Shown: positions 4,087 through 49,397 of the stretch, piece by piece
Layout of the letters: each line of letters starts with the position of its first letter
Position numbering within the stretch: the first letter of the stretch is position 1
Assembly (NCBI RefSeq): GCF_020833685.1
Contig: NZ_JACKZY010000003.1
Span: forward strand, 324,997 to 388,996
From: Nitratireductor sp. B36
Lineage (GTDB): Bacteria; Pseudomonadota; Alphaproteobacteria; Rhizobiales; Rhizobiaceae
DNA: 64,000 nt
Reading direction: 5' to 3'
Notes under the pieces: generated by a model
Databases searched by the model: none
The model's input: the letters and a program-made list of their open reading frames with translations, nothing else
What the model was told of the DNA's origin: nothing
Position numbers and translations under genes: made by a program

Positions 4087-4096
4087 GGAAGGCAAT

Positions 4097-5152: not shown

Positions 5153-5156
5153 GACT

Positions 5157-7730: not shown

Positions 7731-7851
7731 AGCCGCGTGGGGGACAGTTCGTCCAAGCGAAGATTGCTTTCGGAGTTTCCGAACGAACAAGATTTAGCTG
7801 CCTGATCGAGCTGAAGGTTCATTGAGGCGGGGCAACTGGGAGGAGGAGTGC

Positions 7852-15045: not shown

Positions 15046-15753
15046 TTAAACCGCTTCGCCCTCGCACAATTTGCGCAAGAGGGACTGCGTGCCGGTGATG
15101 TCGGCAATCATGTGGGTGCGTGCTTCTTCCGCATTGCGCTCTTTGAGCGCAGCAACAATGGCATGGTGATGTTTCGAGAAAGGCTCGTGCAGGCCGGTGC
15201 CGAGCTTCGGTGCGATATAGGAAGACAGCATCCGCATATAGGGCCCGTAGCGCAGCCATAAGGAATCGATCAGCTGCATCAGCACATCGGAGCGCGATGC
15301 CGCGTAGATGGCGAAATGGAAATCGCGGTTCTTGAGCAGCATTTCGTAAACATCGCCAGCAGCGTGGATCGATTCATGCGCCTCGACAAGCTGTTCCAGA
15401 TTGGACACTTCCGCGTCGGTGATCCGGTGGGCAGCCTGCTCGGTGGCCAATCCCTCAAGGGCGACACGTGCCTGACAAATATCGTCGAGCCTCTGGGCGG
15501 AGACGGGTGGCACATGCGCTGAACCGTTGGCCGCGATCTCCAGCGCGTTTTCGGCGCCAAGACGCCGCAGCGCCTCACGCACCGGCATGGGGCTCGTGCC
15601 GAAAGTGGCTGCAAGAGCCTTGATGGTCATGATCTGACCCGGATCGAACCGGCCGACAATCAACGCATTGCGCAACTGATGGTAGACACCATCACCGATG
15701 GTGACCCGAGTGGAGACGGGCTGCAGGCCTTCCCCCAGTTGCAATTCACTCAT
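15046..15753 (-). CDS. GntR-family transcriptional regulator with FCD ligand-binding domain
   Basis: The 235-residue protein has an N-terminal winged helix (GVYHQLRNALIVGRFDPGQ, then FGTSPMPVREALRRLGAENAL with the recognition helix) and a C-terminal all-helical FCD domain. The FCD metal/ligand residues are present: Asp and His in NRDFHFAIYAAS near residue 145, and the later HHHAIVAAL. FadR-subfamily regulators of this type usually repress transport and catabolism genes until an organic-acid ligand binds. It is the last gene of the leftward Liv operon and lies between two matching palindromes (10505-10518 and 23125-23140), its likely operators. Confidence 0.88.
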   Translation of the reverse strand: MSELQLGEGLQPVSTRVTIGDGVYHQLRNALIVGRFDPGQIMTIKALAATFGTSPMPVREALRRLGAENALEIAANGSAHVPPVSAQRLDDICQARVALEGLATEQAAHRITDAEVSNLEQLVEAHESIHAAGDVYEMLLKNRDFHFAIYAASRSDVLMQLIDSLWLRYGPYMRMLSSYIAPKLGTGLHEPFSKHHHAIVAALKERNAEEARTHMIADITGTQSLLRKLCEGEAV

Positions 15754-15831
15754 CGCCGGTTCCTCGTTTTCTGCCGCACGGCCCCTTGATAGCCGTACAG
15801 AGGGCGAGGGTCCATATCTAGGATTCCAGCT

Positions 15832-17001: not shown

Positions 17002-17077
17002 GGAATTTCTGTCCTGTCATTGGGGCTTTGAAATATGGGCTGGCCGGGCTTCCAGAGCGGCGGCCAGCCCCTGTCTG

Positions 17078-19674: not shown

Positions 19675-19678
19675 CGGC

Positions 19679-20623
19679 TCAATCCGCGTGTTTCGACACG
19701 GATTCGGCTTCGCCGATCAGGCCGCGCGGGCGGAAGATCAGCGTCAGCACGATCAGGAGACCGATCAGGATCACCTGAATCGCCCCGCCCTGCGATTGGT
19801 AGGCGACGGGCAAGAGGCGGCTGATGGCGAGTCCACTCATGGCCCACAGCGCCCACACACCCACCGCGCCGACAATCGCGCCTCGATTGTTGCCGCTGCC
19901 GCCGACGATGAGCATGGCCCAGATCTGGAAGGTGAGGATGGGCAGGAAATCGAGCGGGCTGACATAGCCGATGAAACCTACATAGAGACCACCGGCAAGG
20001 CCCATCAGAACGCAGCCGAGCACGAAGACCTCCAACCGCACCCGTGCGGGATTTCGCCCCAGAGAGCGGGCAGCTGTCTCATCCTCGCGCACGGCTTTCA
20101 AGAGCCTGCCCCATGGCGAGCGCACCGCCGTTTCCAGCGCCCAGTAGACGAGACCGGCCATCACGGCCACGACGCCGAGATAAAAGAGGTTGTAGCTGGC
20201 CGGGCTGTCAAAGAGGCCAAAGAGTGGGCGCGGTAGGCCGACGAGCCCCTGCGCGCCGCCCGTCAGGCTCTCGAAATTGAGGGCAACGAGCTGGATCGAG
20301 ATGGCGATGCCGAATGTGGCAATGGCGAGATACTCTTCGCGCAATCGTAGCGTGGCGAGCCCGACGATCAGCGCCGCTAGCGCGCAGAGTGCCATACCGC
20401 CAAGAACGGCAAGCGGGAAGGGCAGGCCGAACCCGCCGATGAGATGGGTGCGGTCCGGGCCGACAAGGATCGCCGTGCCATAGGCACCGATGGCGAAAAA
20501 GCCCACCACGCCGGCATTGAACAGGCCCGTATAGCCCCACTGGATGTTGAGCCCCATCACCACGATGGAATAGGTGAGTGCGACGATGAGGAAGAAAACG
20601 AGATAGGCAGCAAAGCCGGTCAT
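19679..20623 (-). CDS. livM: Liv-type ABC transporter permease (LivM family)
   Basis: A 314-residue membrane protein with about nine predicted transmembrane segments. The conserved LivM segment YTGLFNAGVVGFFAIGAYG lies near residue 30, and the cytoplasmic coupling motif AVREDETAARSLGRNPARVR near residue 200. Near the C-terminus is the GGSGNNRGAIVGA block typical of the family. It pairs with the LivH-type permease whose gene overlaps by 4 bp. The symbol names the family; specificity for branched-chain amino acids is not established here. Confidence 0.87.
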   Translation of the reverse strand: MTGFAAYLVFFLIVALTYSIVVMGLNIQWGYTGLFNAGVVGFFAIGAYGTAILVGPDRTHLIGGFGLPFPLAVLGGMALCALAALIVGLATLRLREEYLAIATFGIAISIQLVALNFESLTGGAQGLVGLPRPLFGLFDSPASYNLFYLGVVAVMAGLVYWALETAVRSPWGRLLKAVREDETAARSLGRNPARVRLEVFVLGCVLMGLAGGLYVGFIGYVSPLDFLPILTFQIWAMLIVGGSGNNRGAIVGAVGVWALWAMSGLAISRLLPVAYQSQGGAIQVILIGLLIVLTLIFRPRGLIGEAESVSKHAD

Positions 20624-36166: not shown

Positions 36167-37483
36167 ATGTCTGCCAATGTTGCGCTTACCGGTCTTGCCC
36201 GGGATCTCGAGGATCGGGCCAAATCCGGCAAGCCGATCCGTATCGGCCTTGTGGGCTCTGGCGAAATGGGAACCGATATTGTTACCCGCGTGGCTCATAT
36301 GCCGGGTATCGAAATCGGCGCCATTTCGGAGCTGAACCTGCCTGCGGCCAGCCGTGCCGTGGATATCGCCTATCAGGAAGAAGGCCATGCCAAGGAAGTG
36401 GACAGCCAGTCGGCTATGACCACGGCCATGGAAGGCGGCAAGGTGGCCGTCACCAACAATGCCGATCTTCTTCTTGAAAACGATCTGATCGATGTTGTGA
36501 TCGATGCAACCGGCGTTCCGGCTGTCGGCGCGGAGATCGGTCTCAAGGCCATGGAACATGGCAAGCATCTTGTCATGATGAATGTCGAGGCGGATGTCAC
36601 CATCGGCGCTTATCTCAAGAGCGAAGCTGATCGTCTGGGCGTGACCTATTCGCTCGGCGCTGGCGACGAGCCGTCTTCCTGTATGGAGCTGATCGAGTTC
36701 GTTTCGGCCATGGGGCATCCCATCGTCGCTGCCGGCAAGGGCAAGAACAACCCGCTCAACATCGATGCGATCCCGGACGACTATGCCGAGGAAGCAGCGC
36801 GCCGCAACATGAATGTGCGCATGCTGGTCGAGTTTGTCGACGGTTCCAAGACCATGGTCGAGATGGCGGCAATCGCCAATGCCACGGGCCTCGTGCCGGA
36901 TAAGCCGGGCATGCATGGCCCCAAGGCGACGCTCGATGAGTTGTCCTCGGTGCTCGTGCCCGAAAAGGATGGCGGTGTGCTGTCGCGCGTCGGCGTGGTG
37001 GACTATTCCATCGGCAAGGGTGTTGCGCCCGGCGTCTTCGTTGTGGCCGACATGTCGCATCCGCGCATTTCCGAGCGCATGGAAGACCTGAAGATGGGCA
37101 AGGGGCCCTACTTCACCTTCCACCGTCCCTATCATCTCACCTCTCTTGAAGTGCCGCTCACCTGCGCCCGAGTGGTGCTCTATGGCAAGGCCGACATGGT
37201 CCCGCTGGACAAGCCGGTGGCGGAAGTCTGCGCCGTTGCCAAGAAGGACATGCAGCCGGGCGATACGCTCGATGCGATCGGCGAATACTGCTACCGCGCA
37301 TGGATCATGACGGTTCCCGAAGCCCGCGCTTCCAAGGCGATCCCATGCGGCCTGCTTCAGGGTGGCACGGTCACCAAACCCATCAAGAAGGGTGAACTCA
37401 TCACGTCCGAGAATGCTGCACCGCCGGCCGGTTCCAAGATCGCCGAGCTGCGCGCGCGTCAGGACAAGCTCGTTTACGGCTAG
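36167..37483 (+). CDS. DXR-like (DRL)/SAF-domain NAD(P)-dependent oxidoreductase
   Basis: A 438-residue enzyme of the homoserine-dehydrogenase-like family with a Rossmann N-terminus (IGLVGSGEMGTDIV near residues 26-39), a central catalytic domain (NVEADVTIGAYL near residue 143, GAGDEPSSCMELIEF near residue 165), FHRPYHLTSLEVP near residue 320, and a C-terminal SAF-like part. This architecture matches the DRL family described from Brucella abortus, which interconverts 1-deoxy-D-xylulose 5-phosphate and 2-C-methyl-D-erythritol 4-phosphate. Only some family members have that activity. Here it heads an operon with an acetoin-dehydrogenase-like complex beside a glucitol PTS, so the oxidative, catabolic direction is plausible but unproven. 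Confidence 0.78.
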   Translation: MSANVALTGLARDLEDRAKSGKPIRIGLVGSGEMGTDIVTRVAHMPGIEIGAISELNLPAASRAVDIAYQEEGHAKEVDSQSAMTTAMEGGKVAVTNNADLLLENDLIDVVIDATGVPAVGAEIGLKAMEHGKHLVMMNVEADVTIGAYLKSEADRLGVTYSLGAGDEPSSCMELIEFVSAMGHPIVAAGKGKNNPLNIDAIPDDYAEEAARRNMNVRMLVEFVDGSKTMVEMAAIANATGLVPDKPGMHGPKATLDELSSVLVPEKDGGVLSRVGVVDYSIGKGVAPGVFVVADMSHPRISERMEDLKMGKGPYFTFHRPYHLTSLEVPLTCARVVLYGKADMVPLDKPVAEVCAVAKKDMQPGDTLDAIGEYCYRAWIMTVPEARASKAIPCGLLQGGTVTKPIKKGELITSENAAPPAGSKIAELRARQDKLVYG

Positions 37484-37497
37484 ACAGGAGCATGAAT

Positions 37498-38532
37498 ATG
37501 TCGGCCACGGCCAAGAAGGGCGCCGCAAAAAAAGACGGCGCCAACCAGCCTTTCATCTACAGGCACTATGATCAGGAAAAGCTGCGCGATGCGCTGCGCA
37601 AGATGTATCTGATCCGCCAGTTTGAGGAAGGCGCGGAAGAAAGCTATATGCGCGGCCTGATCCACGGCACGATGCATCTTTCCATCGGGCAGGAAGCAAG
37701 TGCCGTCGGCATCTGTCTTGGCCTCACCGATGAAGACCAGATCACCTCCACGCACCGGGGGCATGGTCACTGCATTGCCAAGGGTGCGGATGTCTCGCGC
37801 ATGTTCGCCGAGTTCTTCGGCAAGATCACCGGTTATTGCCGCGGCCGCGGCGGTTCCATGCACATCGCCGATGTGTCGACGGGCAATCTTGGCGCAAACG
37901 GCATTGTCGGCGGCGGTCTGCCGATTGCCGTTGGTGCCGCGCTGACCGCAAAGAAGATGAAGACCGGCAATGTGGTCGTCTGCTTCTTCGGCGACGGTGC
38001 AAACAATGAGGGCGCGTTCCACGAGGCGCTGAACATGGCGGCCATCTGGAAGCTTCCGGTGATCTTCGTTTGCGAGAACAATGGCTATGGCATGTCGACC
38101 TCCGTCGCCCGTGCGACAGCGGTTCCCAACATTGCCGACCGCGCTTCCGCCTATGCGATGCCCGGTGTGATCGTCGACGGCAATGTCGTGTCGGATGTGG
38201 CCGAGGCTATGCACGAGGCAACCGAGCGCGCGCGCAATGGCGAGGGTCCGACGCTCATCGAATGCAAGACATATCGCTATCGCGGCCATTCCAAGAGCGA
38301 CCGCAACCGCTACCGCACCAAGGAAGAGATCGAGGAGTGGATGACCGAGCGTGATCCGATCGAGGCCTTCGAATCCCAGCTGATGGAATTCGGTGTCATC
38401 GATCAGAAAGGCATCGAGGACATCCGCGAATCCGTCCGCAAGGAAATCGAGGCCGGTATCGAGTTTGCCAAGGAAAGCCCGATGCCCGAAGTCGCCAATC
38501 TTGAGAAATACGTCTACACGGAGCAGGCCTGA
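37498..38532 (+). CDS. Thiamine-diphosphate dehydrogenase E1 component, alpha subunit (second copy, AcoA-like)
   Basis: The ATG at 37498 is 7 bases after AGGAG; another ATG at 37492 is too close to it. The 344-residue product opens with a Lys/Ala-rich tail, then [34 protein letters not shown]. The diphosphate-binding motif runs from GDGANNEG near residue 162 to CENN. It resembles acetoin dehydrogenase alpha more than pyruvate dehydrogenase alpha. Following the DRL-type gene by 14 bp, it may form the carboligase-type site that cleaves a methyl-ketone sugar phosphate, the reverse of the DXS carbon-carbon bond. A conventional acetoin or 2-oxo acid substrate is possible. Confidence 0.85.
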
Positions 38533-39542
38533 TGGACGCGCAAGTCGAGACAGCCACGCGTGAACTGAGCTACGCGCAGGCCATCCAGGAAGCCATGGCC
38601 ATAGCCATGGAGCGTGATGAGCGCGTGTTCCTCATGGGCGAGGACATCGGCGTTTACGGTGGCGCCTTTCAGGTCACCGGCGATCTGGTCGAGCGTTTCG
38701 GCACCGACCGTGTCATGGACACGCCGATTTCGGAACTGGGCGGCGCAGGTGTCGCAGTCGGTGCCGCTGTCACCGGCATGCGCCCGATCTTCGAGTTTCA
38801 GTTCTCCGATTTCGCGACGCTCGCCATGGAGCAGATCGTCAACCAGGCCGCCAAGATGCGCTACATGCTGGGTGGTGCCGTTTCGGTGCCGGTCGTCATG
38901 CGCTTTCCGGCGGGCTCCGGCACGGGTGCTGCCGCACAGCACAGCCAGAGCCTTGAAGCGTGGCTCGGCCATGTGCCGGGTCTGAAGGTCATCCAGCCGG
39001 CAACCCCGCACGATGTGAAGGGCATGCTGCTCGCGGCCATCGAGGATCCCGATCCGGTGATGATCTACGAGCACAAGCTCCTCTACAAGATGAAGGGCGA
39101 GGTGCCGGAAGGCTATTACACCGTGCCTATCGGCAAGGCCGAGGTCCGGCGCGAGGGCGCTGATCTCACCATCGTCGCCACGTCGATCATGGTGCACAAG
39201 GCGCTGGACGCTGCAAAGCAGCTTGCCGAAGAGGATATCGACGTCGAGGTTATCGATCTGCGCACGATCCGCCCGATGGATCGCCAGACGATCATCGACA
39301 GCGTGTGCAAGACGTCCCGTCTGATGTGCGTCTATGAAGGCGTGAAAACGCTCGGCGTCGGCGCGGAAATCTCCGCCATGATCGCCGAAAGCGAGGCTTT
39401 CGATTATCTCGACGCACCGGTTGTCCGTCTGGGCGGCGCGGAAACGCCGATCCCGTACAATCCGGAGCTGGAGAAGGCGACGGTCCCGCAGGTCGACGGC
39501 ATCGTCAAGGCGGCCCGCGATCTTGTCACGGGAGCGCGCTGA
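38532..39542 (+). CDS. Thiamine-diphosphate dehydrogenase E1 component, beta subunit (second copy, AcoB-like)
   Basis: The 336-residue beta subunit starts one base inside the alpha stop. It has [18 protein letters not shown] near residue 33, [39 protein letters not shown] near residue 130 and [13 protein letters not shown] near residue 240. These are the standard beta-subunit blocks. It pairs with the 37498 product and hands the acyl group to the E2 encoded next. Confidence 0.88.
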
Positions 39543-39543
39543 C

Positions 39544-40854
39544 ATGGCCGTTGAAGTCATCCTGCCCAAGGTCGACATGGACATGGCGACCGGCCGCATC
39601 TCCTCCTGGCATGTGGAAGAAGGCGCGACCGTGAAGAAGGGCGATCTCCTGTTCGAGATCGAGACCGACAAGGCGGCCATGGAGATCGACTCTCCTGCCG
39701 CCGGCATCGTTCGAAACATCACCGGCAAGGAAGGCGTCGATATTGCCGTCGGTGAGGTTGTCGCCTGGATTTATGAGGAGGGCGAGGCGGTGGCCGATGC
39801 ACCGGCTTCTGCGCCCGCCGAAGCCGCAGCCGAAGCGCCCGCAAAGGCTGAAGCGCCGGCCCCCGTCGAGGCCGCCGCGCCCGTTGCGGCTGTACCGGCA
39901 GCAAATGTGGAAGCGTCTTCAGGCGTTCGCGCCTCTCCGCTCGCGCGCCGTCTGGCGAAGGAAGCCGGTCTCGATCTTGCGGCGATTTCGGGCTCCGGCC
40001 CGAAAGGCCGGATCGTCAAGGCCGATGTGGAAGCCGCTGGCAAGGATGGTGGTGCGAAAGCCGCCGATGCAGCACCTTCTGCCGCTCCGTCCGCACAGCC
40101 GGCCATGTCCGACGATCAGGTCATGAAACTGTTCGAGGAAGGCTCCTACGAGCTCATCCCCCATGACAGCATGCGCAAGACCATCGCCCGCCGTCTGGTC
40201 GAGGCGAAGTCGTCCATCCCGCATTTCTACCTGACGCTCGACTGCGAGATCGACGCGCTTCTGGCGCTGCGCAAGCAGTTGAACGATGCCGCGCCGAAGG
40301 TGAAGACCGAGGATGGCGAGAAGCCGGCTTACAAGCTGTCGGTCAACGACATGGTCATCAAGGCCCATGCGAAGGCGCTCGCCATGGTTCCGGAGGCGAA
40401 TGTCTCCTGGACCGAGAGCGCCATGGTGAAGCACAAACATGCCGATGTGGGCGTTGCCGTGTCGATCCCTGGCGGCCTGATCACGCCGATCATCCGCCGC
40501 GCCGACGAGAAGACGCTGTCGGCGATTTCCAACGAGATGAAGGATCTGGCCACACGGGCGCGCTCGCGCAAGCTGAAGGCGGAAGAGTATCAGGGCGGCA
40601 ACACGGCCGTTTCCAATCTCGGCATGTTCGGCATCAAGGACTTTGCCGCCGTCATCAACCCGCCGCATGCGACGATCCTTGCGGTTGGCGCTGGCGAGCA
40701 GCGGGCGGTGGTGAAGGATGGCGAGGTGAAGGTGGCAACGGTGATGTCGGTGACGCTGTCGACCGATCACCGCGCGGTGGACGGCGCGCTCGGCGCCGAA
40801 CTCCTCGCCGCCTTCAAACAGGTCATCGAAAATCCGATGACAATGCTCGTCTGA
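39544..40854 (+). CDS. Dihydrolipoamide acyltransferase E2 with classical CAT-type core
   Basis: The ATG at 39544 begins directly after the beta-subunit stop and gives 436 residues. Residues 1-80 are a lipoyl domain with the target Lys in ETDKAAME. An Ala/Pro/Glu-rich swinging linker (about 85-130) follows. Then comes an E3-binding domain (RASPLARRLAKEAG near residue 136) and, from about residue 200, the acyltransferase core ending in the catalytic DHRAVDG. Unlike the first cluster's E2, this one has the ordinary pyruvate-dehydrogenase-type core. It would make acetyl-CoA from the E1 product. No E3 gene is present; the operon ends here at a terminator. Confidence 0.9.
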   Translation: MAVEVILPKVDMDMATGRISSWHVEEGATVKKGDLLFEIETDKAAMEIDSPAAGIVRNITGKEGVDIAVGEVVAWIYEEGEAVADAPASAPAEAAAEAPAKAEAPAPVEAAAPVAAVPAANVEASSGVRASPLARRLAKEAGLDLAAISGSGPKGRIVKADVEAAGKDGGAKAADAAPSAAPSAQPAMSDDQVMKLFEEGSYELIPHDSMRKTIARRLVEAKSSIPHFYLTLDCEIDALLALRKQLNDAAPKVKTEDGEKPAYKLSVNDMVIKAHAKALAMVPEANVSWTESAMVKHKHADVGVAVSIPGGLITPIIRRADEKTLSAISNEMKDLATRARSRKLKAEEYQGGNTAVSNLGMFGIKDFAAVINPPHATILAVGAGEQRAVVKDGEVKVATVMSVTLSTDHRAVDGALGAELLAAFKQVIENPMTMLV

Positions 40855-40987
40855 TATGCATCCCCGGTTCGCAGAGGGGCTCGTTGCCGGGGAAGCAGAG
40901 GGGGAGCGTCCGGCATTCCTTGTGGGATGAGGGACGCTATTGGGGTGGGTAACCGGGGGACAGCCCTGGAACTTTGACCGCGTCAAC

Positions 40988-41023
40988 TGGCGCTGCCTGG
41001 ATCATCACGGGCAGCGCCATTTT
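40988..41023 (+). terminator. Intrinsic terminator after the E2 gene
   Basis: A perfect 10-bp stem TGGCGCTGCC / GGCAGCGCCA (40988-40997 and 41010-41019) with a 12-base loop, followed by TTTTCTTT. It closes the DRL-E1-E2 operon. The stem may also serve the convergent HAD gene, which ends at 41026. Confidence 0.85.
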
Positions 41024-41025
41024 CT

Positions 41026-41712
41026 TTACATGTCCGCCACGGTTTCACGGATGAAGCCGCGCTGGGTCAACTCGGCTTCCACCGCGTTCCAGCTTGTGCA
41101 TACTGCATGGGCACCGGCGGCCAGCAGCTTTTCGGCGTGACCCTCGAAAGTATGGCTTCCTCCCGTGAAGCCGATGGCGGTCATACCGGCTGCAACGGCA
41201 CCCTGTACGCCGAAGGGGGAATCCTCGATCACCACCGAAGAAGCAGGCTCGCTACCCAGCTTTTCCGCTGCGAACAGAAAAATGTCAGGTGCCGGCTTGC
41301 CGTTTTGGACCATTGAGGTGCTGAAGACATTGTCGGCAAAGAAATCTGCAATGCCAGTCACTTCAAGGCTGAGGGCAATGCGTTCCATCGATGATGATGA
41401 GGCAACACAGCGGGCGGCTTCAAGGTTACGAAGAAACGGCAATATGTCCCTTGTCGGCTTTAGCTCTTCTTCCAGAAGGGCTCTGGTCTCCAGCCAGATG
41501 TCGCCTTCGGCATGGGCAGGGAAAGCGTGACCGGTGAGTTCCTCGATGCGGACAATGATGTCGGCCTGCTTCATGCCGATGCACTGGGTAACGATATCGC
41601 GGGTCAGTGCGAGGCCATGTTTGTTGTAGACGCGTTCATAGGCGATCGCGGCCAGCGGTTCGCTGTCGACGAGGACGCCGTCGCAATCGAATATGATCAG
41701 GGGCTTGCTCAT
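41026..41712 (-). CDS. HAD-superfamily sugar phosphatase / beta-phosphoglucomutase-like
   Basis: A 228-residue HAD subfamily IA protein. Motif I is FDCDGVLVDSEP near residues 8-19, motif II is ASSSS near residue 110, motif III Lys is in NGKPAPDIFLFAAE near residue 137, and motif IV is VVIEDSPFGV near residue 157. Length and the C1-type cap match sugar phosphatases and beta-phosphoglucomutases. Lying between the DRL operon and the PTS operon, on the opposite strand, it may hydrolyse excess sugar or polyol phosphate formed by the PTS. Confidence 0.85.
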   Translation of the reverse strand: MSKPLIIFDCDGVLVDSEPLAAIAYERVYNKHGLALTRDIVTQCIGMKQADIIVRIEELTGHAFPAHAEGDIWLETRALLEEELKPTRDILPFLRNLEAARCVASSSSMERIALSLEVTGIADFFADNVFSTSMVQNGKPAPDIFLFAAEKLGSEPASSVVIEDSPFGVQGAVAAGMTAIGFTGGSHTFEGHAEKLLAAGAHAVCTSWNAVEAELTQRGFIRETVADM

Positions 41713-41769
41713 GGAAACTCCAGAATTGACGTAGAGCTGGTGTGAAAGGGAGATGACCGGTGCTGAATT

Positions 41770-42417
41770 TCAGCTGGCCGGGTCGGGGAAGATGGAGGGA
41801 GCGGCGATGCTTTTCCGCCCGGCCTCGACCGCGGAGCGCATGGCGTGTCTCCCTTCCACGAGGTCAGGGGCGACCCAGTTCGGCTCTGCTCCGAGAAACC
41901 GGTCGAGAAAGGCAACCGCTGTGGCGGGCATCTCACGCGTGTTTTCACGGTAAGACCACCACGTCCGCAGATCGTCGGCGCAGTGGTCAAGCCTTGGCGC
42001 CTGGCCGAATTCTTGCTCAAAGATGGCTGCGATGGCGCAGACACAATAGTTTGTATAGAGAAAGCCCTCGGGCCAGAATTTCACAATGTCTGCGTTGTCG
42101 GCACCGCGAGACACACTGCTCCCGTCCGCGACGGTGACCGGTGCGTTCCGGATCAACTCCTTGAGAGCGAGGCCTGCGGAATAAATGATGAAATCCGCTC
42201 GATCGAGCTGGGCGTAGGCTTTGTGGGCATCGACCATTTCCACCCAATCGAGGAAGACTCGGGTCAGCTTCTCTTCGTTCACCTCAAACGCGACACCGTA
42301 ATGCTGCGTTACGGCTCTCGCATTGCCGCGAAACGTGGCGCGAAACCAGCGCAACTGGCGCAGCCGGTGGCGCAGATCGGGCATGACGGCAAGTTCGTTC
42401 TTGAAATCCAGATCCAA
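41770..42417 (-). CDS. Hypothetical protein inside the PTS locus
   Basis: The TTG at 42417, 7 bases after AAGGAG (reverse strand of 42425-42430), gives 215 residues beginning MDLDFKNELAVMPDLRHRLRQ. No domain is recognised. The sequence is soluble, helix-rich and slightly aromatic, with the distinctive stretch FWPEGFLYTNYCVCAIAAIF. It is divergent from gutM and shares its upstream region, including the inverted repeat at 42509-42528. The context suggests a link to polyol use; no function is assigned. Confidence 0.65.
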   Translation of the reverse strand: MDLDFKNELAVMPDLRHRLRQLRWFRATFRGNARAVTQHYGVAFEVNEEKLTRVFLDWVEMVDAHKAYAQLDRADFIIYSAGLALKELIRNAPVTVADGSSVSRGADNADIVKFWPEGFLYTNYCVCAIAAIFEQEFGQAPRLDHCADDLRTWWSYRENTREMPATAVAFLDRFLGAEPNWVAPDLVEGRHAMRSAVEAGRKSIAAPSIFPDPAS

Positions 42418-42508
42418 CGGTGAACTCCTTGGCCTGAACAATAGCACGCCGCAGGCTGGTTCCAATCAAATAAGCGGCGCGTTCGGGCTCGGAGGAATAT
42501 ACAATTTG

Positions 42509-42530
42509 ACATTTCAAAAAACAAATGTTC
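42509..42530. promoter_or_regulatory. Operator candidate ACATTT-N8-AAATGT upstream of the PTS operon
   Basis: Perfect 6-bp inverted arms (42509-42514 and 42523-42528) separated by CAAAAAAC; the right arm belongs to ACAAATGTT, which also occurs upstream of the DRL-type gene (35985). The site lies between the divergent hypothetical gene and gutM. A SorC-type regulator encoded at 48366-49397 is the natural candidate. Confidence 0.45.
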
Positions 42531-42597
42531 TTAGTTTCAGGATTGAGGTGTTTGCAGTGCGTACGCTTGGGATGAGCGTTTCGGGAGGAACGGCCTG

Positions 42598-43035
42598 ATG
42601 GCAATATGGCAATGGGGGCTTTTGCTCCTCGCGGTCGTATGGGCATTGCAGTCCTACGGCGTGTGGCTGCAGATGCGACACTACTCCGATGTCTTCAAGG
42701 GCATTACCCACAAATACACGGACGGGTTCGTCGGGACGGGCGCCTTTCACGGGCGCTTTCTGAAGCGTGGAGCGATTGCCATCGTCGTTGTTGCTCCGGA
42801 TCTTTCCGTTCGTCGCATTCTGACCATGAGCGGTCGCTCCGTTTTTGCAAAGTTCAAACGACATCAAGAGTTCGAGGGCATGTCCCTCGATCAGCTGCGG
42901 GCCGAGCCGGCGCTGTTCGGCGAAGACAAGCCGGGGCTTACTGCGGCGATTACCCAGGCGGTGGCACAGATAGACCGTACGCGCGCGGGCGATGAACCGC
43001 CGCTGCGGGAATCCCTGGCCGCAGCAAACGCATGA
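42598..43035 (+). CDS. gutM: Glucitol operon activator family protein (GutM)
   Basis: A 145-residue protein with one N-terminal membrane helix (WQWGLLLLAVVWALQSYGVWLQ) followed by the GutM-type region VFKGITHKYTDGFVGTGAFHGRFLKRGAIAIVVV and later LTMSGRSVFAKFKRH. GutM proteins accompany glucitol-family PTS genes and were described as operon activators in enteric bacteria. It is the first gene of the PTS operon, 64 bp before the EIIC gene. Confidence 0.85.
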   Translation: MAIWQWGLLLLAVVWALQSYGVWLQMRHYSDVFKGITHKYTDGFVGTGAFHGRFLKRGAIAIVVVAPDLSVRRILTMSGRSVFAKFKRHQEFEGMSLDQLRAEPALFGEDKPGLTAAITQAVAQIDRTRAGDEPPLRESLAAANA

Positions 43036-43099
43036 CATACGGGACTGCACGCTCACCGGGGCTCAATCACCGGGGTGAGCAGAAGAGAGAGGGAGGACT

Positions 43100-43858
43100 A
43101 TGTCTGTCATTTCACTAATGGCCCAGCATGCCGATACGGCTATGCAGGGGCTGCATATGGCTGGTGCTGTGGCCGGTGATGCCGCACTTACCGGCAAGCT
43201 GGCCGCCAAGGCGGCAGCAAATGATCTCGTCGTTCTGGCCCAGGCGGGCAGCGACATCTCGGTCGAGGAATTCCGGCAGAAGCTGGATTCGGTCGCCCAG
43301 GAAGAGCAACTCGGCTGGCTCACAGCCGCGGGCAAATACTTTATCGGCATTTTCCAGAAAGGCGGCGAAGTGTTCGCCGGCTTCGTCACCGGAATCATTC
43401 CGACACTGGTTGTTCTGATGACGGCTTTCTACGCCATCACCGAACTGGTGGGCGAGAAGCGCGTTCACGGCCTGGCCCAGAGCGCGGGCCGGATTGCGCT
43501 CACGCGTTACACGGTTCTTCCGGTGCTTGCGGTTTTCTTCCTCACCAACCCTATGGCGTACACGTTCGGTTCATTCCTGGAAGAGAAGCACAAGCCGGCA
43601 TTCTATGATGCTGCGGTGTCCTATGTGCATCCGCCGCTCGGCCTGTTCCCGCATATCAATCCAGGTGAGTATTTTGTCTGGGGCGGCATTCTTGTCGCGT
43701 TGCTCGAGCTTGAGAGCCAGGGCGTTGTTCCCGGTGGTTACCACATCACCGTGGCCATCTGGTATGCGCTCGTCGGCCTCGTCGTCATCCTGCTCAAGGG
43801 CATGCTGACCGAGAAGATCACCGCCATCATGGCGCGCCGCCAGGGCGTTGAGCTCTAG
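43100..43858 (+). CDS. srlA: PTS glucitol/sorbitol-family transporter subunit IIC
   Basis: The 252-residue membrane protein matches E. coli SrlA along its length from about residue 75: YFIGIFQKGGEVFAGFVTGIIP, FFLTNPMAYTFGSFLEEKHKP and GLFPHINPGEYFV. Compared with the roughly 187-residue E. coli protein, it has an extra N-terminal region of about 65 polar residues. It forms part of the membrane channel for a polyol phosphorylated during uptake. The symbol names the family; glucitol as substrate is not implied. Confidence 0.9.
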   Translation: MSVISLMAQHADTAMQGLHMAGAVAGDAALTGKLAAKAAANDLVVLAQAGSDISVEEFRQKLDSVAQEEQLGWLTAAGKYFIGIFQKGGEVFAGFVTGIIPTLVVLMTAFYAITELVGEKRVHGLAQSAGRIALTRYTVLPVLAVFFLTNPMAYTFGSFLEEKHKPAFYDAAVSYVHPPLGLFPHINPGEYFVWGGILVALLELESQGVVPGGYHITVAIWYALVGLVVILLKGMLTEKITAIMARRQGVEL

Positions 43859-43872
43859 GGGAGGGGCAGGAC

Positions 43873-44883
43873 ATGGCGAAAACATACAAAGCAGTAAAGA
43901 TCACGAAGGGTTCCTCCGGTTGGGGTGGCCCGCTGGTCATCGAACCGACGGCACAGCGCAACAAGGTTGTGTCCGTTACCGGTGGTGGCATCCATCCGGT
44001 CGCACAGCGCATTGCGGACATGACCGGCGCCGAAGTTGTCGACGGCTTCAAGAGCCCGCCGATTGAGAGCGAGATGGCGGTGGTCGTTGTCGATTGCGGG
44101 GGCACGGCGCGTTGCGGTGTGTATCCGCGCAAGCGCATTCCGACCGTCAATCTCACACCCGTCGGCCAGGCTGGGCCGCTCGCCCAGTTCATCACCGAGG
44201 ACATCTATGTGTCCGGTGTGAAGCCGGAGAACATTGAGATGGCGGACGGTAGCGAGGCGGCGACCGTTGCTGGCGGCGCTGCCAGCGGCGCAGAAGCTGG
44301 CGAACAGGCCACTGCCTCCGCGGCGGCACCTGCACCGTCCAACGAAGGTGGTCTTGTCGGTCTTATCAGCAGCGTTGGCCGCGTGATGGGCCGCGTGGTG
44401 GGCATCTTCTTCAACGCCGGCCGTCGCACCATCGACCAGGTGGTTCGTAACGTTCTGCCATTCATGGCCTTCGTGACCATGCTGATCGGTCTAATCCTCT
44501 ACACGGGCATCGGCGATGTGCTTGCCCAGCCCATGGGGCCGCTGGCCAACAACATTATCGGCCTGCTCATCATTTCGGCCATCTGTGGCCTGCCGTTCCT
44601 GTCACCCATTCTCGGGCCGGGTGCGGTTATTGCGCAGGTGATCGGTGTGGCGATCATCGGCCCGCAGATTGCCAATGGCACGATTTCGCCCGCCATGGCG
44701 TTGCCGGCCCTGTTTGCCTACAACACACAGGTGGGCTGTGACTTCGTGCCCGTGGGCCTCGCGCTGGGTGAAGCAAAGCCGAAAACGATCGAAATCGGCG
44801 TCCCGGCGGTGCTGATCAGCCGCCAGATCATGGGTCCCGTTTCCGTGGCACTCGCCTGGGCTGTCAGCCTGGTGGTGCTGTAA
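43873..44883 (+). CDS. srlE: PTS glucitol/sorbitol-family transporter subunit IIB(C)
   Basis: A 336-residue protein like E. coli SrlE. The N-terminal IIB domain begins KITKGSSGWGGPLVIEP and has the phospho-accepting Cys region VVVDCGGTARCGVYPRKRIPT near residue 75. After an Ala-rich linker, the C-terminal membrane part carries NVLPFMAFVTMLIGL, SPILGPGAVIAQVIGVAIIGP and CDFVPVGLALGEAKP. It accepts phosphate from IIA and gives it to the incoming polyol. It follows the IIC gene by 14 bp. Confidence 0.9.
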   Translation: MAKTYKAVKITKGSSGWGGPLVIEPTAQRNKVVSVTGGGIHPVAQRIADMTGAEVVDGFKSPPIESEMAVVVVDCGGTARCGVYPRKRIPTVNLTPVGQAGPLAQFITEDIYVSGVKPENIEMADGSEAATVAGGAASGAEAGEQATASAAAPAPSNEGGLVGLISSVGRVMGRVVGIFFNAGRRTIDQVVRNVLPFMAFVTMLIGLILYTGIGDVLAQPMGPLANNIIGLLIISAICGLPFLSPILGPGAVIAQVIGVAIIGPQIANGTISPAMALPALFAYNTQVGCDFVPVGLALGEAKPKTIEIGVPAVLISRQIMGPVSVALAWAVSLVVL

Positions 44884-44889
44884 CCCTCG

Positions 44890-44923
44890 GAGGCGGCGGC
44901 TGCCTTGGGGCGGCCGCTGCCTC
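44890..44923 (+). other. Strong intra-operon hairpin between srlE and srlB
   Basis: Two 15-base arms (44890-44904 and 44909-44923) pair completely in RNA if two G-U pairs are allowed, with a 4-base TTGG loop. No T tract follows, so a transcript-stabilising or processing hairpin at the 3' end of srlE is more likely than a terminator. Confidence 0.6.
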
Positions 44924-44983
44924 TCGATTACCAGATCGCCGCGCGTCCATCCGGACGCACAACGGACGATCTAAACTATTGAT

Positions 44984-45035
44984 GGAGCATCGGAATAGCC
45001 CGAAAACCGGATTCCACTTTTCGGTCCGATGCTCC
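44984..45035. repeat. Rhizobial-type palindromic intergenic repeat
   Basis: Outer arms GGAGCATCGGA (44984-44994) and TCCGATGCTCC (45025-45035) are perfect inverted repeats; inside is CCGAAAA ... TTTTCGG-like pairing around the ACCGGATTCCACTT loop. This outline matches the palindromic repeats scattered between genes in Mesorhizobium and relatives. It lies between srlE and srlB. Confidence 0.7.
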
Positions 45036-45057
45036 GGTTTGCATGGAGTTTTCTTGA

Positions 45058-45441
45058 ATGTCGGTGTTTCTCAAAACGCGCATAACCGCAGTCGGTCCGG
45101 AAGTTGCGGATCTGGCGGAAGGTGGTGTCCTGATTCTGTTCGCTGATGGTGCGCCGGAGGAACTTGCCGAGGTTTCCGTTCTTCATGCGGTTCAGGATGG
45201 ACCGTCTACCGATGCACCGGTGCCCGGCACGCGTGTCAGCGTTGGCGACAGTGTATCTGCAGAGATTACCGCCATGGGCGATGCAGCCTGGAACAAGGTG
45301 CGCGAGATCGGGCATGTTGTGGTGAATTTTAACGGTGCGACCGCCGTGGAGCGTCCTGGTGAGATTTGCGCGTCTGTAGTAGAGCCTGACAAGCTTGTCG
45401 CGGCGTTGAAGGCGGATGCCGTGATCACCATCGGCGCCTGA
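45058..45441 (+). CDS. srlB: PTS glucitol/sorbitol-family subunit IIA
   Basis: The 127-residue soluble protein follows the E. coli SrlB pattern: VFLKTRITAVGPEVADL at the start, then GVLILFADGAPEELAEVSVLHA. The His in VLHA aligns with the phospho-accepting His of the family. The middle has VPGTRVSVGDSVSAEITAMGDAAWNKVREIGHVVVNFNG. It takes phosphate from HPr and gives it to IIB. A 174-base gap with a hairpin and a repeat separates it from srlE. Confidence 0.87.
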   Translation: MSVFLKTRITAVGPEVADLAEGGVLILFADGAPEELAEVSVLHAVQDGPSTDAPVPGTRVSVGDSVSAEITAMGDAAWNKVREIGHVVVNFNGATAVERPGEICASVVEPDKLVAALKADAVITIGA

Positions 45442-45478
45442 CGCCGTTACGAAATCGAAGAAAAGACACGAGACCGGT

Positions 45479-47467
45479 ATGGAACGCTCGACCATCGTCC
45501 GAGTGCAGGATGGCCTGCATGCCCGACCAGCCACCCGCTTTGTACGCCTCGCCAAGGGGTTCGAGAGTGAGGTGGAGATCGTAAAGGGAGAGAAGGCCGT
45601 TAGTGCCAAGAGTTCGGTCAAGCTGATGCTGCTTGGCGTGAAGGAAAATGACGAAGTCTCCATCCGCGCCGAAGGTGCCGATGCCATAGAGGCCGTCGAT
45701 GCACTCATCGCCTATCTGGAAAACCCGCTTTCGGGGATTGAAGAGGGTGCCGGCGAGATTTCGGCGCAGCCGTCTGAACCTCAGAAAGAGGCCGCGCCTC
45801 AAAAAGCGGCCACGAGTGCCGAAAGCCCGGTAGCTGAGGCAGGGTTGCATGGTGTCGCTGCCAGCGCCGGCCTCGGGCTTGGCCCCGTCTTTGCGCATTT
45901 CCCGCAACAGATCGTGCCTGCCAACAAGACGCTTTCAGCCGAGGAAGTCGGCCCGGAGAAAAAACGCTTTGAGGATGCTGTGGTGCGGCTCCAGGAAAAG
46001 CTCGACCGCTCGCTTGCATCCGACGGTATGCAGGAAAGTGACCGTGGAATTGTCGCGGCCTTGCGTGATATTGCGTCTGATGACGCGCTGCGCGATGAGA
46101 CGCTTGCCGCCATAGACGGTGGGCTTGATGCGGTTTCCGCCGTTATCGCGGCCTCGTCAAATCTCGCGGACGAGTTCCGCAAGCTGGATGATGCCTATAT
46201 GGCGGCCCGCGCAGAGGACATGGAGTCCATCGCGCGGCAGATATGCCTGACGCTTCTTGGGCAGGAAGACGCCCGCCTTGATGACATTCCCGAAGGTGCA
46301 ATTCTGGTTGCCGAGGACATCGGAGCCTGGGACCTGGCGCGTGCACCACTCAAGCGTCTTGGCGGTGTGGTATGCGGACATGGCGGCGCTACCTCGCATG
46401 TGGCGATCATCGCCCGCACCCATGGCATACCGGCAGTGCTCGGTCTTGGTGAGGCAGTCAACCAGTTGCGTGAAGCCAAGGAAGCAGCCATCGACGGTCA
46501 TACAGGGCAGGTTGTGGTCGAGCCGGATGCGGAGACCCGTGCCCGTTTTGCGGAGATGATCGGAGCCGCCGCGCGTGAAAAGGAAGCCCTCAAGGCTTAC
46601 AAGGATGTGGTGCCGCGTCGGGCGGATGGAACGGTCATCCAGGTTGCCGCCAATCTCGGTTCGCTGGAAGAGGTCGAAGCCGCCCAGGAGGCCGGTGCGA
46701 TGGGCGTTGGCCTGTTCCGTACCGAATTGCTTTTCATGCGTCACATGCATCTGCCTTCCGAGGACATGCAGGCGGAAACCTATGCGGAACTCGCCCGTGC
46801 CTTTCCGGATCATCCGGTGATCGTGCGCACACTCGATATCGGCGGTGACAAGCCGATCTCCGGCGTGGAGTTTCCGGAAGAAGAGAACCCCTTCCTTGGC
46901 TGGCGTGGCATTCGCATGTGCCTTGATCGGCCGGATATCTTCAAGGTGCAGCTGCGGGCGCTTCTGCGCGCCGCCGTTCACGGCAATCTGCGCGTAATGC
47001 TGCCGATGGTTTCGGATGTTGAGGAAGTGCGCCGCACACGCGCCCTCATCGAAGAATGCGCAGCCGAGCTGAAAGCTGAGGGGGTCGCCTGCGGCGAATT
47101 TCCGCTGGGGGTCATGATCGAGACGCCGGCTGCGGTCTTCGGTGCAGCAGCACTGGCAAAGGAGGTTTCGTTCTTCTCGATCGGCACCAATGACCTGACC
47201 CAGTATGTGATGGCTGCGGATCGCCTCAATCCCTCGGTCGCCAATCTTAACGACGCGGCTCATCCGGCCGTGATGGCAGCCGTTGAGCAGGCTGCAAAGG
47301 CTGCGGAGGAAGCAGGGATCGAGATTGGCATGTGTGGTGAGGCCGCCGCGCGCCCAGATCTCATACCGGAATTCATTCGCATGGGGCTGACGGAGCTCAG
47401 CATGAGCCCGGCGTCCATTCAGGCAACCAAGAAACAGCTTTCGGAGCTGCTGGAGACCGCTGCCTGA
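45479..47467 (+). CDS. HPr-Enzyme I fusion phosphotransferase
   Basis: A 662-residue fusion. Residues 1-88 are HPr, with the phospho-His in GLHARPATRF and the AKSSVKLMLLG segment around the regulatory-Ser position. After an acidic Ala-rich linker, residues 120-660 form Enzyme I: phospho-His in GGATSHVAIIARTHGIPAVLGLG near residue 305, GLFRTELLFM near residue 410, and the C-terminal PEP-binding site with SIGTNDLTQYVMAADR and MCGEAAARPDL. There is no IIA module, because IIA is encoded separately upstream. It makes the PTS self-sufficient by moving phosphate from PEP to IIA. Confidence 0.9.
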   Translation: MERSTIVRVQDGLHARPATRFVRLAKGFESEVEIVKGEKAVSAKSSVKLMLLGVKENDEVSIRAEGADAIEAVDALIAYLENPLSGIEEGAGEISAQPSEPQKEAAPQKAATSAESPVAEAGLHGVAASAGLGLGPVFAHFPQQIVPANKTLSAEEVGPEKKRFEDAVVRLQEKLDRSLASDGMQESDRGIVAALRDIASDDALRDETLAAIDGGLDAVSAVIAASSNLADEFRKLDDAYMAARAEDMESIARQICLTLLGQEDARLDDIPEGAILVAEDIGAWDLARAPLKRLGGVVCGHGGATSHVAIIARTHGIPAVLGLGEAVNQLREAKEAAIDGHTGQVVVEPDAETRARFAEMIGAAAREKEALKAYKDVVPRRADGTVIQVAANLGSLEEVEAAQEAGAMGVGLFRTELLFMRHMHLPSEDMQAETYAELARAFPDHPVIVRTLDIGGDKPISGVEFPEEENPFLGWRGIRMCLDRPDIFKVQLRALLRAAVHGNLRVMLPMVSDVEEVRRTRALIEECAAELKAEGVACGEFPLGVMIETPAAVFGAAALAKEVSFFSIGTNDLTQYVMAADRLNPSVANLNDAAHPAVMAAVEQAAKAAEEAGIEIGMCGEAAARPDLIPEFIRMGLTELSMSPASIQATKKQLSELLETAA

Positions 47468-47476
47468 TCAAACCGT

Positions 47477-48235
47477 CTATGGAAGATGGGTGAGCAGGCT
47501 CTCAAAGACGGCCGTCAGGTCGGTGATCGGTTGGTCCGCCGCAAGGCTGCGGGCCATCCGGTCCCGACGCGCTGAAATGGCCATCGTGGCGATGTCGAGC
47601 AAATCCGAAGCGGGGAGACTCTCGTCGGACCCGATCAGCGCCGAGGCGAGGAGCCCCGGTGCAAAGACAAGTAGGACTGCTTTCGCATCCCGGGTGGAAG
47701 GCGACGCTGCCGGATCGTTCAAAGCGCTGCGGCAAATGTCCTGAACGAGGTGTGCAAGCATGCCCGCGATCAGTGCACGCTTCGTTTCATGTCCGGTGGC
47801 ATTCTTCAGAGCCAGAACCATGTGGCCCTGCCGTTGACGTAGCGCCTCATGGGCCGCGGTGAACCCGGTTTCGCGAATCACTGGTGGCTCGGCAGGCTCG
47901 AGGGTGGCCGCCAGGATTTTTGCTGTGCGATACATGTGACGTCTGAAAGCGCGTTCACCCGCGCCGGAGTCAGTGAAGTAATCGCCGAGCGGCCATAAGA
48001 CCAGTTCGTGCTGCTGCGCTCCAGGCAGAACAGTCCGAGACGTGGTTTCGGCGAGTGTCAGCGTGTCATCGAGCATGCTCGCAGCGCGTGCCAGAAGCGT
48101 CTCCATATCGCTGAAATTTCTGCCTGTGGCGGCTGTCGCCTGCCGCTCATGCCTATGAGAACGCAGAAAATCGCGTATGTCCCGCAAGCGGTCCTTAAGG
48201 TGAATCGCCATATCCTGCGAGGCATCACGAAGCAT
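47477..48235 (-). CDS. Hypothetical cytoplasmic protein between PTS and SorC genes
   Basis: A 252-residue product on the strand opposite its neighbours, convergent with the HPr-EI gene (9 bp apart). It looks helix-rich and soluble, with no signal peptide. Stretches such as FSDMETLLARAASMLDDTLTLAE and ALKNATGHETKRALIAGMLAHLVQDICRSAL suggest a helical bundle. No family is recognised. It may be expressed divergently from the SorC gene at 48366 and so belong to that regulator's control region. Confidence 0.65.
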   Translation of the reverse strand: MLRDASQDMAIHLKDRLRDIRDFLRSHRHERQATAATGRNFSDMETLLARAASMLDDTLTLAETTSRTVLPGAQQHELVLWPLGDYFTDSGAGERAFRRHMYRTAKILAATLEPAEPPVIRETGFTAAHEALRQRQGHMVLALKNATGHETKRALIAGMLAHLVQDICRSALNDPAASPSTRDAKAVLLVFAPGLLASALIGSDESLPASDLLDIATMAISARRDRMARSLAADQPITDLTAVFESLLTHLP

Positions 48236-48365
48236 AAAGTAGTATCCTCAGGTAAGCACTTTTCCGCTACCGGGCATTGACCCGATGGCGACATCATTGT
48301 TTTGGTCTTCCCGGAAATCAAGCGAGATGCTTGTATCCGTCCCGGGGACAACGCAGGAAGACTAT

Positions 48366-49397
48366 ATGACCAAGGCCAAAGCGCACAAACAGTCCGCTGG
48401 GCAGCCCGCCGGTACGACCAGTTCTGGAGAGCTTGCGATCGTACCGGGCAGGGGAGGCGTGACCAGCAAGACGGATCGACTGCGTGTGCGCGCCGCATGG
48501 ATGTATTTCGTTGAGCAGAAGACACAAAACGAAATCGCGGAGATCCTCGGCATTGGTCGGGTCAGCGTGGTGCGCATGCTTGCCGATGCGCGCGCCCGCA
48601 ACGAGGTGAAGATCACAATCGAAGGTGATCTTGCAGAGATAACGCGTATCGAGCGGGCGCTTGAGAAACGCTTTGGTCTGGAACGTGCAGTGGTCGCGCC
48701 GCTCTCAGATCCTGATGCAGACCCGATACCGGCCATCAGTGCGGCTACTGGAAGTTTTGTCTCGGATGTGATGGCAACGGGCATGTCGGTTGGTGTCGGC
48801 TGGGGCCGAACGTTGTTCGGTTCCTTGCCGTTCATTCGCGCTCGACCACTGGCGGATTTCAGAGTGATCTCACTGTTGGGTGGCGTCGGCGTGGCGCGAC
48901 GGTTCAATCCGGCCGAGTTTGCCTGGCGTTTTGCGCGCGCCTTTCAGGGGGACGGTTATCTCATTCCAGCACCTGCAGTCGTCGACAGCGTTGAAACCAA
49001 GACGGCCCTGATCGAGCGATGCGGTTTGCATGAGATCCTGGCTTTGGCTGATACGCTCGATGCGGTCATCGTTTCCATTGGCGGTCTGGCTTCGGCCACC
49101 ACCTTTTATCGAGGTGGTTACCTCACTGAGGCCGTTCGGGCAGCCCTGGAGGAGAAGGGCGCGGTCGGAGACATACTTTACCACTTCTATGACATTGAGG
49201 GCCAATTGGTGGATCACCCGATCAACGACCGAGTGATGTCTGTCGATGTCGATCGTCTGCGGCGGGCGCCGATGCGAATCCTGACCTCAGGTGGTGAAGA
49301 CAAGATCGAGGCGCTCGTCGGAGCCATGAAACTGGTTGAGCCGACAGTGTTCATCACGGACGAGGAGAGTGCTCGCAGCATCCTCGCTTATGCCTGA
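48366..49397 (+). CDS. SorC-family sugar-binding transcriptional regulator
   Basis: The ATG at 48366 follows CAGGAAGACTAT and gives 343 residues. After a Ser/Gly-rich tail comes a helix-turn-helix (AAWMYFVEQKTQNEIAEIL, then GIGRVSVVRMLADARARNEV, about residues 45-85). The SorC effector domain follows: GMSVGVGWGRTLFGSLPFI near residue 145, SLLGGVGVARRFNPAEFAWRFA near residue 175, and GDILYHFYDIEGQLVDHPINDR near residue 280. Such regulators sense phosphorylated sugars or polyols. At the downstream edge of the PTS locus, it probably senses the PTS product and controls PTS and DRL operons. Confidence 0.9.
   Translation: MTKAKAHKQSAGQPAGTTSSGELAIVPGRGGVTSKTDRLRVRAAWMYFVEQKTQNEIAEILGIGRVSVVRMLADARARNEVKITIEGDLAEITRIERALEKRFGLERAVVAPLSDPDADPIPAISAATGSFVSDVMATGMSVGVGWGRTLFGSLPFIRARPLADFRVISLLGGVGVARRFNPAEFAWRFARAFQGDGYLIPAPAVVDSVETKTALIERCGLHEILALADTLDAVIVSIGGLASATTFYRGGYLTEAVRAALEEKGAVGDILYHFYDIEGQLVDHPINDRVMSVDVDRLRRAPMRILTSGGEDKIEALVGAMKLVEPTVFITDEESARSILAYA

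Follow-up and report, generated by a model that had tools for sequence, protein, structure and literature searches.

The described systems that come closest to the gene cluster reported here are the DXR-II (also called DRL) of Brucella (3UPL/3UPY), which belongs to the 2-C-methyl-D-erythritol 4-phosphate (MEP) pathway, the acetoin dehydrogenase complex AcoABC and the enterobacterial sorbitol (srl/gut) operon encoding a phosphotransferase system (PTS). Acetoin systems come with a butanediol dehydrogenase and a sigma-54 regulator, and the CH3-CO-CHOH unit cleaved by acetoin-type complexes is also carried by 1-deoxy-D-xylulose 5-phosphate (DXP). We analysed a stretch of 64,000 nucleotides from Nitratireductor sp. 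B36, in the following called the window, which contains at positions 36167-49397 a cluster of genes encoding a DRL, the E1alpha, E1beta and E2 subunits of a thiamine diphosphate (ThDP)-dependent dehydrogenase complex, a glucitol-family PTS and a SorC-type regulator. We consider it probable that this cluster constitutes a catabolic pathway for 2-C-methyl-D-erythritol, a branched polyol of five carbons related to the precursors of isoprenoids, leading from MEP to DXP and from DXP to acetyl-CoA and glyceraldehyde 3-phosphate.

According to this model, methylerythritol would be taken up by the PTS with concomitant phosphorylation to MEP; a 2004 paper by Testa, Cornish and Poulter reportedly, going by its title, gives precedent for methylerythritol entry and conversion to MEP. 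The clustered DRL would oxidise MEP to DXP, i.e. in reverse of the biosynthetic direction, and DXP, a methyl-ketone acyloin, would be cleaved oxidatively by the ThDP-dependent E1/E2 complex, using an E3 shared with other complexes in this genome, resulting in acetyl-CoA and glyceraldehyde 3-phosphate, which would both feed central metabolism. SorC would sense a phosphorylated intermediate, and a standalone DXR-II would perform the biosynthetic job. The E1 reaction proposed here would cleave the bond made by DXS via the same hydroxyethyl-ThDP intermediate; E1/E2 differ from DXS in protein architecture and in that the oxidation is coupled to lipoyl and CoA.

The window DRL belongs to the same family as Brucella DXR-II and shows the same active-site residues, and differs from it in sharing a cluster with genes for uptake, E1/E2 and SorC and in its proposed reverse direction. 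Compared to Brucella-type standalone DXR-II, carrying Ala-Arg-Arg at positions 55-57, its residue 55 is acidic. The cluster resembles AcoABC in the E1alpha/E1beta/E2 layout, in the proposed acyloin cleavage yielding acetyl-CoA and an aldehyde, and in the AcoC-type E2 present in about half of the homologous clusters. In contrast to AcoABC, the complex would act on a sugar phosphate and has, in the window, an E2 of the acyltransferase type; moreover, both acetoin-type E1alphas compared lack the cluster E1alpha residues H58 and T60. Neither a butanediol dehydrogenase nor a sigma-54 regulator is found among the genes of 36167-49397, and this acetoin context was seen in another locus (L204). With the srl/gut operon the cluster shares the IIC, IIB, IIA and GutM families, whereas it has DRL in place of SrlD, SorC in place of SrlR, its own HPr-EI and a PTS of separate lineage.

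Conserved core, exchangeable uptake modules and PTS lineage

The association of the cluster genes is not due to chance, as the same gene order recurs in Nitratireductor thuwali and as all 17 genomes with a glucitol IIB above the cut-off, among 151 genomes surveyed from the same family as the source, carry E1/E2 genes. IIB and E1/E2 lie on one contig in 15 of these 17; in G136 they are located on two contigs ending inside the cluster and in G122 in two separate places. In 10 of the 17, no more than 10 kb separate DRL from the PTS. A genome scan yielded 556 confirmed relatives, the best 80 of which are the named loci, and E1alpha adjoins DRL in 64 of these best 80, with Rhodobacteraceae and a gamma-proteobacterial metagenome-assembled genome (MAG) among the E1-linked ones. 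In 46 of the 60 named loci with at least 9 kb on both sides (well-flanked), DRL is E1-linked, defining DRL-E1alpha-E1beta(-E2) as the conserved core. These 46 loci contain a glucitol PTS (18), a PfkB kinase detected with the kinase of the Agrobacterium cluster as query (15), both (1) or neither (12), while neither module occurs in any of the 14 unlinked well-flanked loci. The conserved protein hyp1 is likewise found in 28 of the 46 compared to 0 of the 14. A database search for this neighbourhood, as suggested in a preliminary description of the window, shows the core to recur in 46 of the 60 well-flanked loci, the gene order in N. thuwali and the gene set in Priestia.

In related clusters the PTS is swapped for an ATP-binding cassette (ABC) transporter plus PfkB kinase, and either arrangement would provide DRL with a phosphorylated substrate. 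In Mesorhizobium jarvisii (L030), a SorC gene and an ABC importer occupy the uptake position (15260-20307). The best structural relatives of its binding protein include a pyridoxal-phosphate-binding protein and 4r72, which we take to be a sugar-phosphate binder; this importer may take up an already phosphorylated compound, i.e. a phosphate ester, directly. Complete or near-complete gene sets are also present in Rhodospirillales (L011), Terrarubrum (L209) and Priestia (Bacillota), the latter encoding GutM-IIC-IIB-IIA-HPr, E1alpha-E1beta-E2-E3, SorC, DRL and an FGGY kinase. An E3 gene lies inside both the Agrobacterium and the Priestia clusters. A DRL 83% identical to the window DRL occurs in a record titled Bacillus subtilis SK6B4 (L063), which is probably mislabelled or contaminated. 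The gene content, its conservation, the exchange of modules and the split into clustered and standalone DXR-II can be read from the sequences themselves.

The tree of IIB comprises 24 proteins, 16 of them encoded in DRL-bearing genomes (12 proteobacterial, 4 from Bacillota; 15 with DRL nearby, and L244 from genome G122 with DRL elsewhere in the genome) and eight with a short-chain dehydrogenase/reductase (SDR) beside the PTS. A single branch with support of 100/99.8 parts the proteins from DRL genomes, including the window IIB, from the SDR-linked ones. Two Priestia species and two Ligilactobacillus salivarius records are split across this branch by partner gene; the branch of L014 is long. 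By its sequence, the window PTS is a lineage apart from the sorbitol PTS. An SDR is present in all eight SDR-linked loci compared, and neither sorbitol-6-phosphate dehydrogenase nor another SDR is found among the genes of 36167-49397. The candidate of a sorbitol operon was set aside on the missing SDR and the separate PTS lineage.

Clustered and standalone DXR-II

The window DRL matches the Brucella DRL 3UPL with 729 bits, ungapped over residues 1-435; the standalone DRL L078 reaches 889 bits. All ten DXR-II residues checked are present, i.e. G121, T229, H250 and V351 as well as K191, K193, E174, F178, R320 and Y322, which are named in PMC3847144. By sequence and these published residues the window oxidoreductase is a DXR-II, bearing out its earlier assignment to the DRL family. 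A match to DXR-I is not found in the source genome (4.19 Mb, 99.7% complete), which encodes two DRLs, the second being a standalone copy between proC and an Lrp-type regulator gene. The absence of DXR-I had favoured the window DRL as the only biosynthetic DXR of this genome, a candidate weakened once the standalone DRL appeared; the latter is the likelier biosynthetic enzyme. Additional functional DXR-II paralogues are described for Mesorhizobium loti and Ochrobactrum anthropi in PMC3847144, according to which DXR-II also occurs in some bacteria possessing DXR-I and is found, and active, in bacteria without the MEP pathway. One Ochrobactrum genome contains one E1-linked (L034) and one standalone copy (L078).

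Within the 151 family genomes, 116 show a DRL-domain match, and DXR-I is clearly present in 54, two weak ones among its 56 matches being discounted. Neighbourhoods were retrieved for 109 DXR-II-type sites, which together with the window amount to 110 loci from 98 genomes; DXR-I is missing from 93 of these genomes. At least one resolved copy without nearby E1 is present in 85 of these 93, the contig is cut within 1.5 kb of DRL in three (G004, G089, G127), and an E1-linked copy is the only one in five (G018, G067, G086, G090, G136), E1-linked copies being present in 14 of the 93 overall. Five genomes have both DXR-I and a DXR-II-type gene, which is linked to E1 in four and adjoins PfkB at a contig end in the fifth (G087). 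Among the 92 loci without E1, proC is nearby in 33. These counts show that standalone DXR-II goes with the absence of DXR-I while clustered DXR-II is independent of it, and the five genomes restricted to an E1-linked copy suggest that clustered DXR-II interconverts DXP and MEP. As the sole DXR found in five genomes, the clustered copy probably makes MEP there.

A further difference concerns residue 55, the expected end of beta-strand 2. After thinning at 96.5% identity, Asp or Glu is present at this position in all 57 E1-linked but in 39 of 77 unlinked DRLs, and an acid at 55 combined with an aliphatic residue at 56 in 56 of 57 compared to 15 of 77; many standalone DRLs have Thr-Arg-Arg, Thr-Arg-Thr or Ala-Arg-Arg at 55-57. 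This suggests, as a hint only because the signal gives p 0.125 after control for relatedness, that clustered DRLs use NAD+ and many standalone ones NADP(H). In Phyllobacterium phragmitis (L050, 15030-18135, minus strand), NAD(P) transhydrogenase genes (PNTB and AlaDh_PNT domains) lie beside DRL-E1-E2.

The E1/E2 complex and the gene inventory

The window E1alpha scores just below the cut-off of the pyruvate dehydrogenase (PDH) equivalog TIGR03182 (388.9 compared to 393.85 bits). It shares 56% identity with the Priestia cluster E1alpha, 52% and 50% with two acetoin-type E1alphas, 43% with that of the other set in the window and 40% with that of another E1alpha/E1beta pair of the source genome (L003), which we take for its PDH; the window E1beta is 62% identical to Priestia E1beta. 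H58, T60 and N132 are conserved in all 88 aligned cluster E1alphas, some sharing a genome, and in Priestia, and occur in none of four full-length E1alpha outgroups. T60 lies two positions ahead of the conserved His and aligns with Phe in human PDH; this Phe presumably lines the pyruvate pocket. The PDH E1 active site is treated in PMC2663715.

An AcoC-type E2, i.e. lipoyl plus alpha/beta hydrolase domain, is absent from the window cluster, where E2 is of the 2-oxoacid_dh type. Of 81 clusters examined, an open reading frame (ORF) follows E1beta in 77, with 74 distinct sequences over the final 150 residues; it encodes an acyltransferase-type E2 in 33, an alpha/beta hydrolase-type E2 in 34 and a truncated or unclear product in 10. 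Pfam confirmed all six hydrolase-type E2s tested and one of the acyltransferase type, and three of three hydrolase-type E2s exceed the acetoin dehydrogenase E2 cut-off of 307 bits (433.6, 340.9 and 362.1). The earlier designation of the complex as acetoin-dehydrogenase-like therefore suits the homologous clusters, 34 of 77 having an AcoC-type E2, better than the window E2 and E1beta, which score as PDH-type. A plain PDH or acetoin cluster was set aside on model scores, E2 exchange, E1 identities and the lineage residues. On a Clostridioides difficile plasmid (L205, 8025-13945), SorC, E1alpha, E1beta, E2 and E3 genes follow one another, the E1beta being 58% identical to that of the window, and no DRL was seen in this stretch.

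Features of the cluster at 36167-49397 and of a second cluster in the window
Feature	Position	Strand	Evidence
DRL / DXR-II oxidoreductase	36167-37483	+	PF21135 230.1 bits (cut-off 27)
E1alpha of ThDP dehydrogenase complex	37492-38532	+	PF00676 312.6 bits
E1beta of ThDP dehydrogenase complex	38532-39542	+	PF02779, PF02780; NF006667 408.5 bits (cut-off 321)
E2 dihydrolipoamide acyltransferase, PDH-type catalytic domain	39544-40854	+	lipoyl, E3-binding and 2-oxoacid_dh domains
Hairpin followed by a T-rich stretch, possible terminator behind DRL-E1-E2	40988-41019	+	12 pairs, 9 G-C
HAD-family phosphatase	41026-41712	-	PF13419 83.4 bits; best NCBIfam matches below cut-offs
hyp1, conserved mostly helical protein, start codon uncertain	41770-42465	-	no Pfam match
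GutM	42598-43035	+	PF06923 72.5 bits
Glucitol-family PTS IIC	43100-43858	+	PF03608 210.6 bits
Glucitol-family PTS IIB	43873-44883	+	PF03612, PF07663
Glucitol-family PTS IIA	45058-45441	+	PF03829 86.1 bits
Fused HPr-Enzyme I (HPr-EI)	45479-47467	+	PF00381, PF05524, PF00391, PF02896
hyp2, conserved protein	47477-48235	-	no Pfam match; tblastn matches in 18 loci
SorC-type sugar-binding regulator	48285-49397	+	PF04198 184 bits
Second cluster E1alpha	4097-5152	+	
Second cluster E1beta	ends 6146	+	
Second cluster AcoC-like E2	6143-7399	+	301.6 bits, just under cut-off 307
Second cluster FGGY pentulose-type kinase	7822-9339	+	
Second cluster SDR	9336-10109	+	

Every gene named in the preliminary description is present with an open frame, and the expected catalytic motifs were located by pattern search. 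DRL, E1alpha, E1beta and E2 form a head-to-tail run with intergenic gaps below 10 bases; the E2 profile searches were run from the start at 39541, one residue longer than the frame listed. Terminator-like sites are overall not more frequent than in shuffled sequence. The HAD phosphatase perhaps relieves sugar-phosphate build-up, and the fused HPr-EI likely serves this PTS alone. The AlphaFold2 model of hyp1 has a mean pLDDT (predicted local distance difference test) of 88.5, and hyp2 adjoins HPr-EI in several PTS clusters. The second, acyloin-type sugar cluster (452-10109, plus strand) also includes a ribose-type ABC transporter and looks like another route from a polyol via a 1-deoxyketose phosphate to acetyl-CoA.

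Weighing the proposed route and its meaning

The route through MEP and DXP had been put forward in the preliminary description and gains support from the comparative tests, namely the DXR-II residues, the separate PTS lineage and the PTS/PfkB exchange, as well as from the AcoC-type E2 in about half of the clusters and from clustered DRL being the sole DXR in five genomes. As had been stated earlier for such a pathway, our search of the open-licence literature turned up no account of bacteria breaking down or using methylerythritol. The enzyme families are all known; the pathway and the context-based division into clustered and standalone DXR-II appear to be new.

Several observations weigh against this assignment. 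The substrate is one that we infer, as are direction, cofactor, cleavage chemistry and regulation, and for the reversibility of DXR, taken here as background, no printed statement was found in open-licence papers. Genomes whose sole DXR found is the clustered copy imply a biosynthetic role for it as well. An acidic residue 55 is not exclusive to E1-linked DRLs, and the relatedness-controlled test comprises three to four pairs for and none against (median p 0.125). The window E2 passes the PDH model TIGR01349 (477.4 bits; cut-off 445), E1beta passes its PDH-type cut-off (NF006667) and is nearer to the genome's own PDH (50%) than to two acetoin-type E1betas (45-47%), and the E1alpha tree, which has long branches, leaves Priestia unplaced, only 4% of bootstrap trees grouping it with the proteobacterial DRL-linked E1alphas. 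As to gene content, the 12 well-flanked E1-linked loci with neither PTS nor query-like PfkB lack a recognised uptake module, and one of them, L030, has its ABC importer without an evident kinase. DRL and PTS occur without E1/E2 in Listeria innocua, Enterococcus raffinosus and L. salivarius. G063 has the E1/PTS set with DRL elsewhere in the genome, and in G096 (99% complete) the E1/PTS cluster (L243, G096:C11) has no adjoining DRL; a search of G096 found neither DRL nor DXR-I, the missing DRL probably reflecting an assembly gap because the contig begins just before E1alpha.

Among the loci without E1/E2, a phosphoketolase gene (XFP domains) lies divergently upstream of the DRL-PTS-SorC genes in E. 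raffinosus (L207, 6082-8463, minus strand), and genes for fructose-6-phosphate aldolase and transketolase follow the DRL-PTS genes in L. salivarius (L014, 14919-17578), possibly providing another way to split DXP.

The cluster could degrade another branched or deoxy polyol, e.g. 2-C-methyl-D-threitol, with DRL converting a homologue of MEP to a 1-deoxyketose phosphate, from which E1/E2 would release acetyl-CoA and an aldehyde phosphate. The gene logic would be identical and the exact substrate is not readable from sequence, and the second window cluster (ABC transporter, FGGY kinase, SDR, E1/AcoC-type E2) shows that complexes of this kind are not tied to a single sugar route. We regard this as rather unlikely, given that clustered DRL as sole DXR in five genomes probably handles DXP and MEP themselves and that PMC3847144 describes the extra paralogues in M. 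loti and O. anthropi as functional. Distinctly improbable in our view is a salvage function, in which methylerythritol feeds isoprenoid synthesis as MEP while DRL and E1/E2 merely balance the MEP, DXP and acetyl-CoA pools. MEP is an isoprenoid intermediate, the Listeria-type locus combines DRL and PTS without E1/E2, and a Salmonella paper reportedly belongs to this context. Dedicated E1/E2 genes, alternative uptake systems and SorC regulators exceed the needs of salvage, however, and E1-linked DRLs are present in four genomes with DXR-I; moreover, PMC3847144 records DXR-II in bacteria that have no MEP pathway.

That E1/E2 is an extra pyruvate or acetoin dehydrogenase whose position beside DRL and PTS has no functional meaning is suggested by the PDH-type scores of E1beta and E2, but is highly improbable considering the frequency of the E1 linkage among the best 80 named loci, reaching to Rhodobacteraceae and the gamma-proteobacterial MAG, the same gene set in Priestia, the presumed PDH pair elsewhere in the genome, the lineage residues next to the conserved His of E1alpha and a linkage that is kept when E2 is swapped for the acetoin type. 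A sorbitol operon with unusual accessory genes is barely conceivable, even though the PTS subunits (PF03608, PF03612, PF03829) and GutM are of glucitol families: no SDR is found among the genes of 36167-49397, the eight SDR-linked PTS lie beyond the fully supported IIB branch, and we know of no use of DRL and E1/E2 in sorbitol breakdown.

If methylerythritol catabolism is the function of the cluster, the first reactions of the non-mevalonate route to isoprenoids would also run backwards for carbon and energy, and one enzyme family would do two opposite jobs distinguishable by gene neighbourhood. This would give a reason for DXR-II alongside DXR-I and for active DXR-II without the MEP pathway, both reported in PMC3847144. 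A tentative extension, to which we give slightly less than even weight, is that DXR-II began as a catabolic enzyme of a methylerythritol-eating pathway in Proteobacteria and Bacillota and that biosynthetic DXR-II is a later recruit. The pathway would then combine a PTS, or an ABC transporter plus kinase, with an NAD-type DXR-II and a complex cleaving DXP, and the cofactor pocket of the recruit in Brucella and other DXR-I-less Hyphomicrobiales would have moved towards NADP, a part of the proposal that we hold with the same reserve. Such an origin, if true, would explain functional DXR-II in bacteria having DXR-I or lacking the MEP pathway.

Plants contain methylerythritol, and 2-methyltetrols arise in the air from isoprene. 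Plant roots, nodules and soil are the origin of many plasmid-borne copies among those listed, so the pathway may act as a sink for methylerythritol and 2-methyltetrols. It would also offer a ready enzyme set joining methylerythritol and DXP to central metabolism, and the role of DXR-II outside isoprenoid synthesis becomes directly testable.

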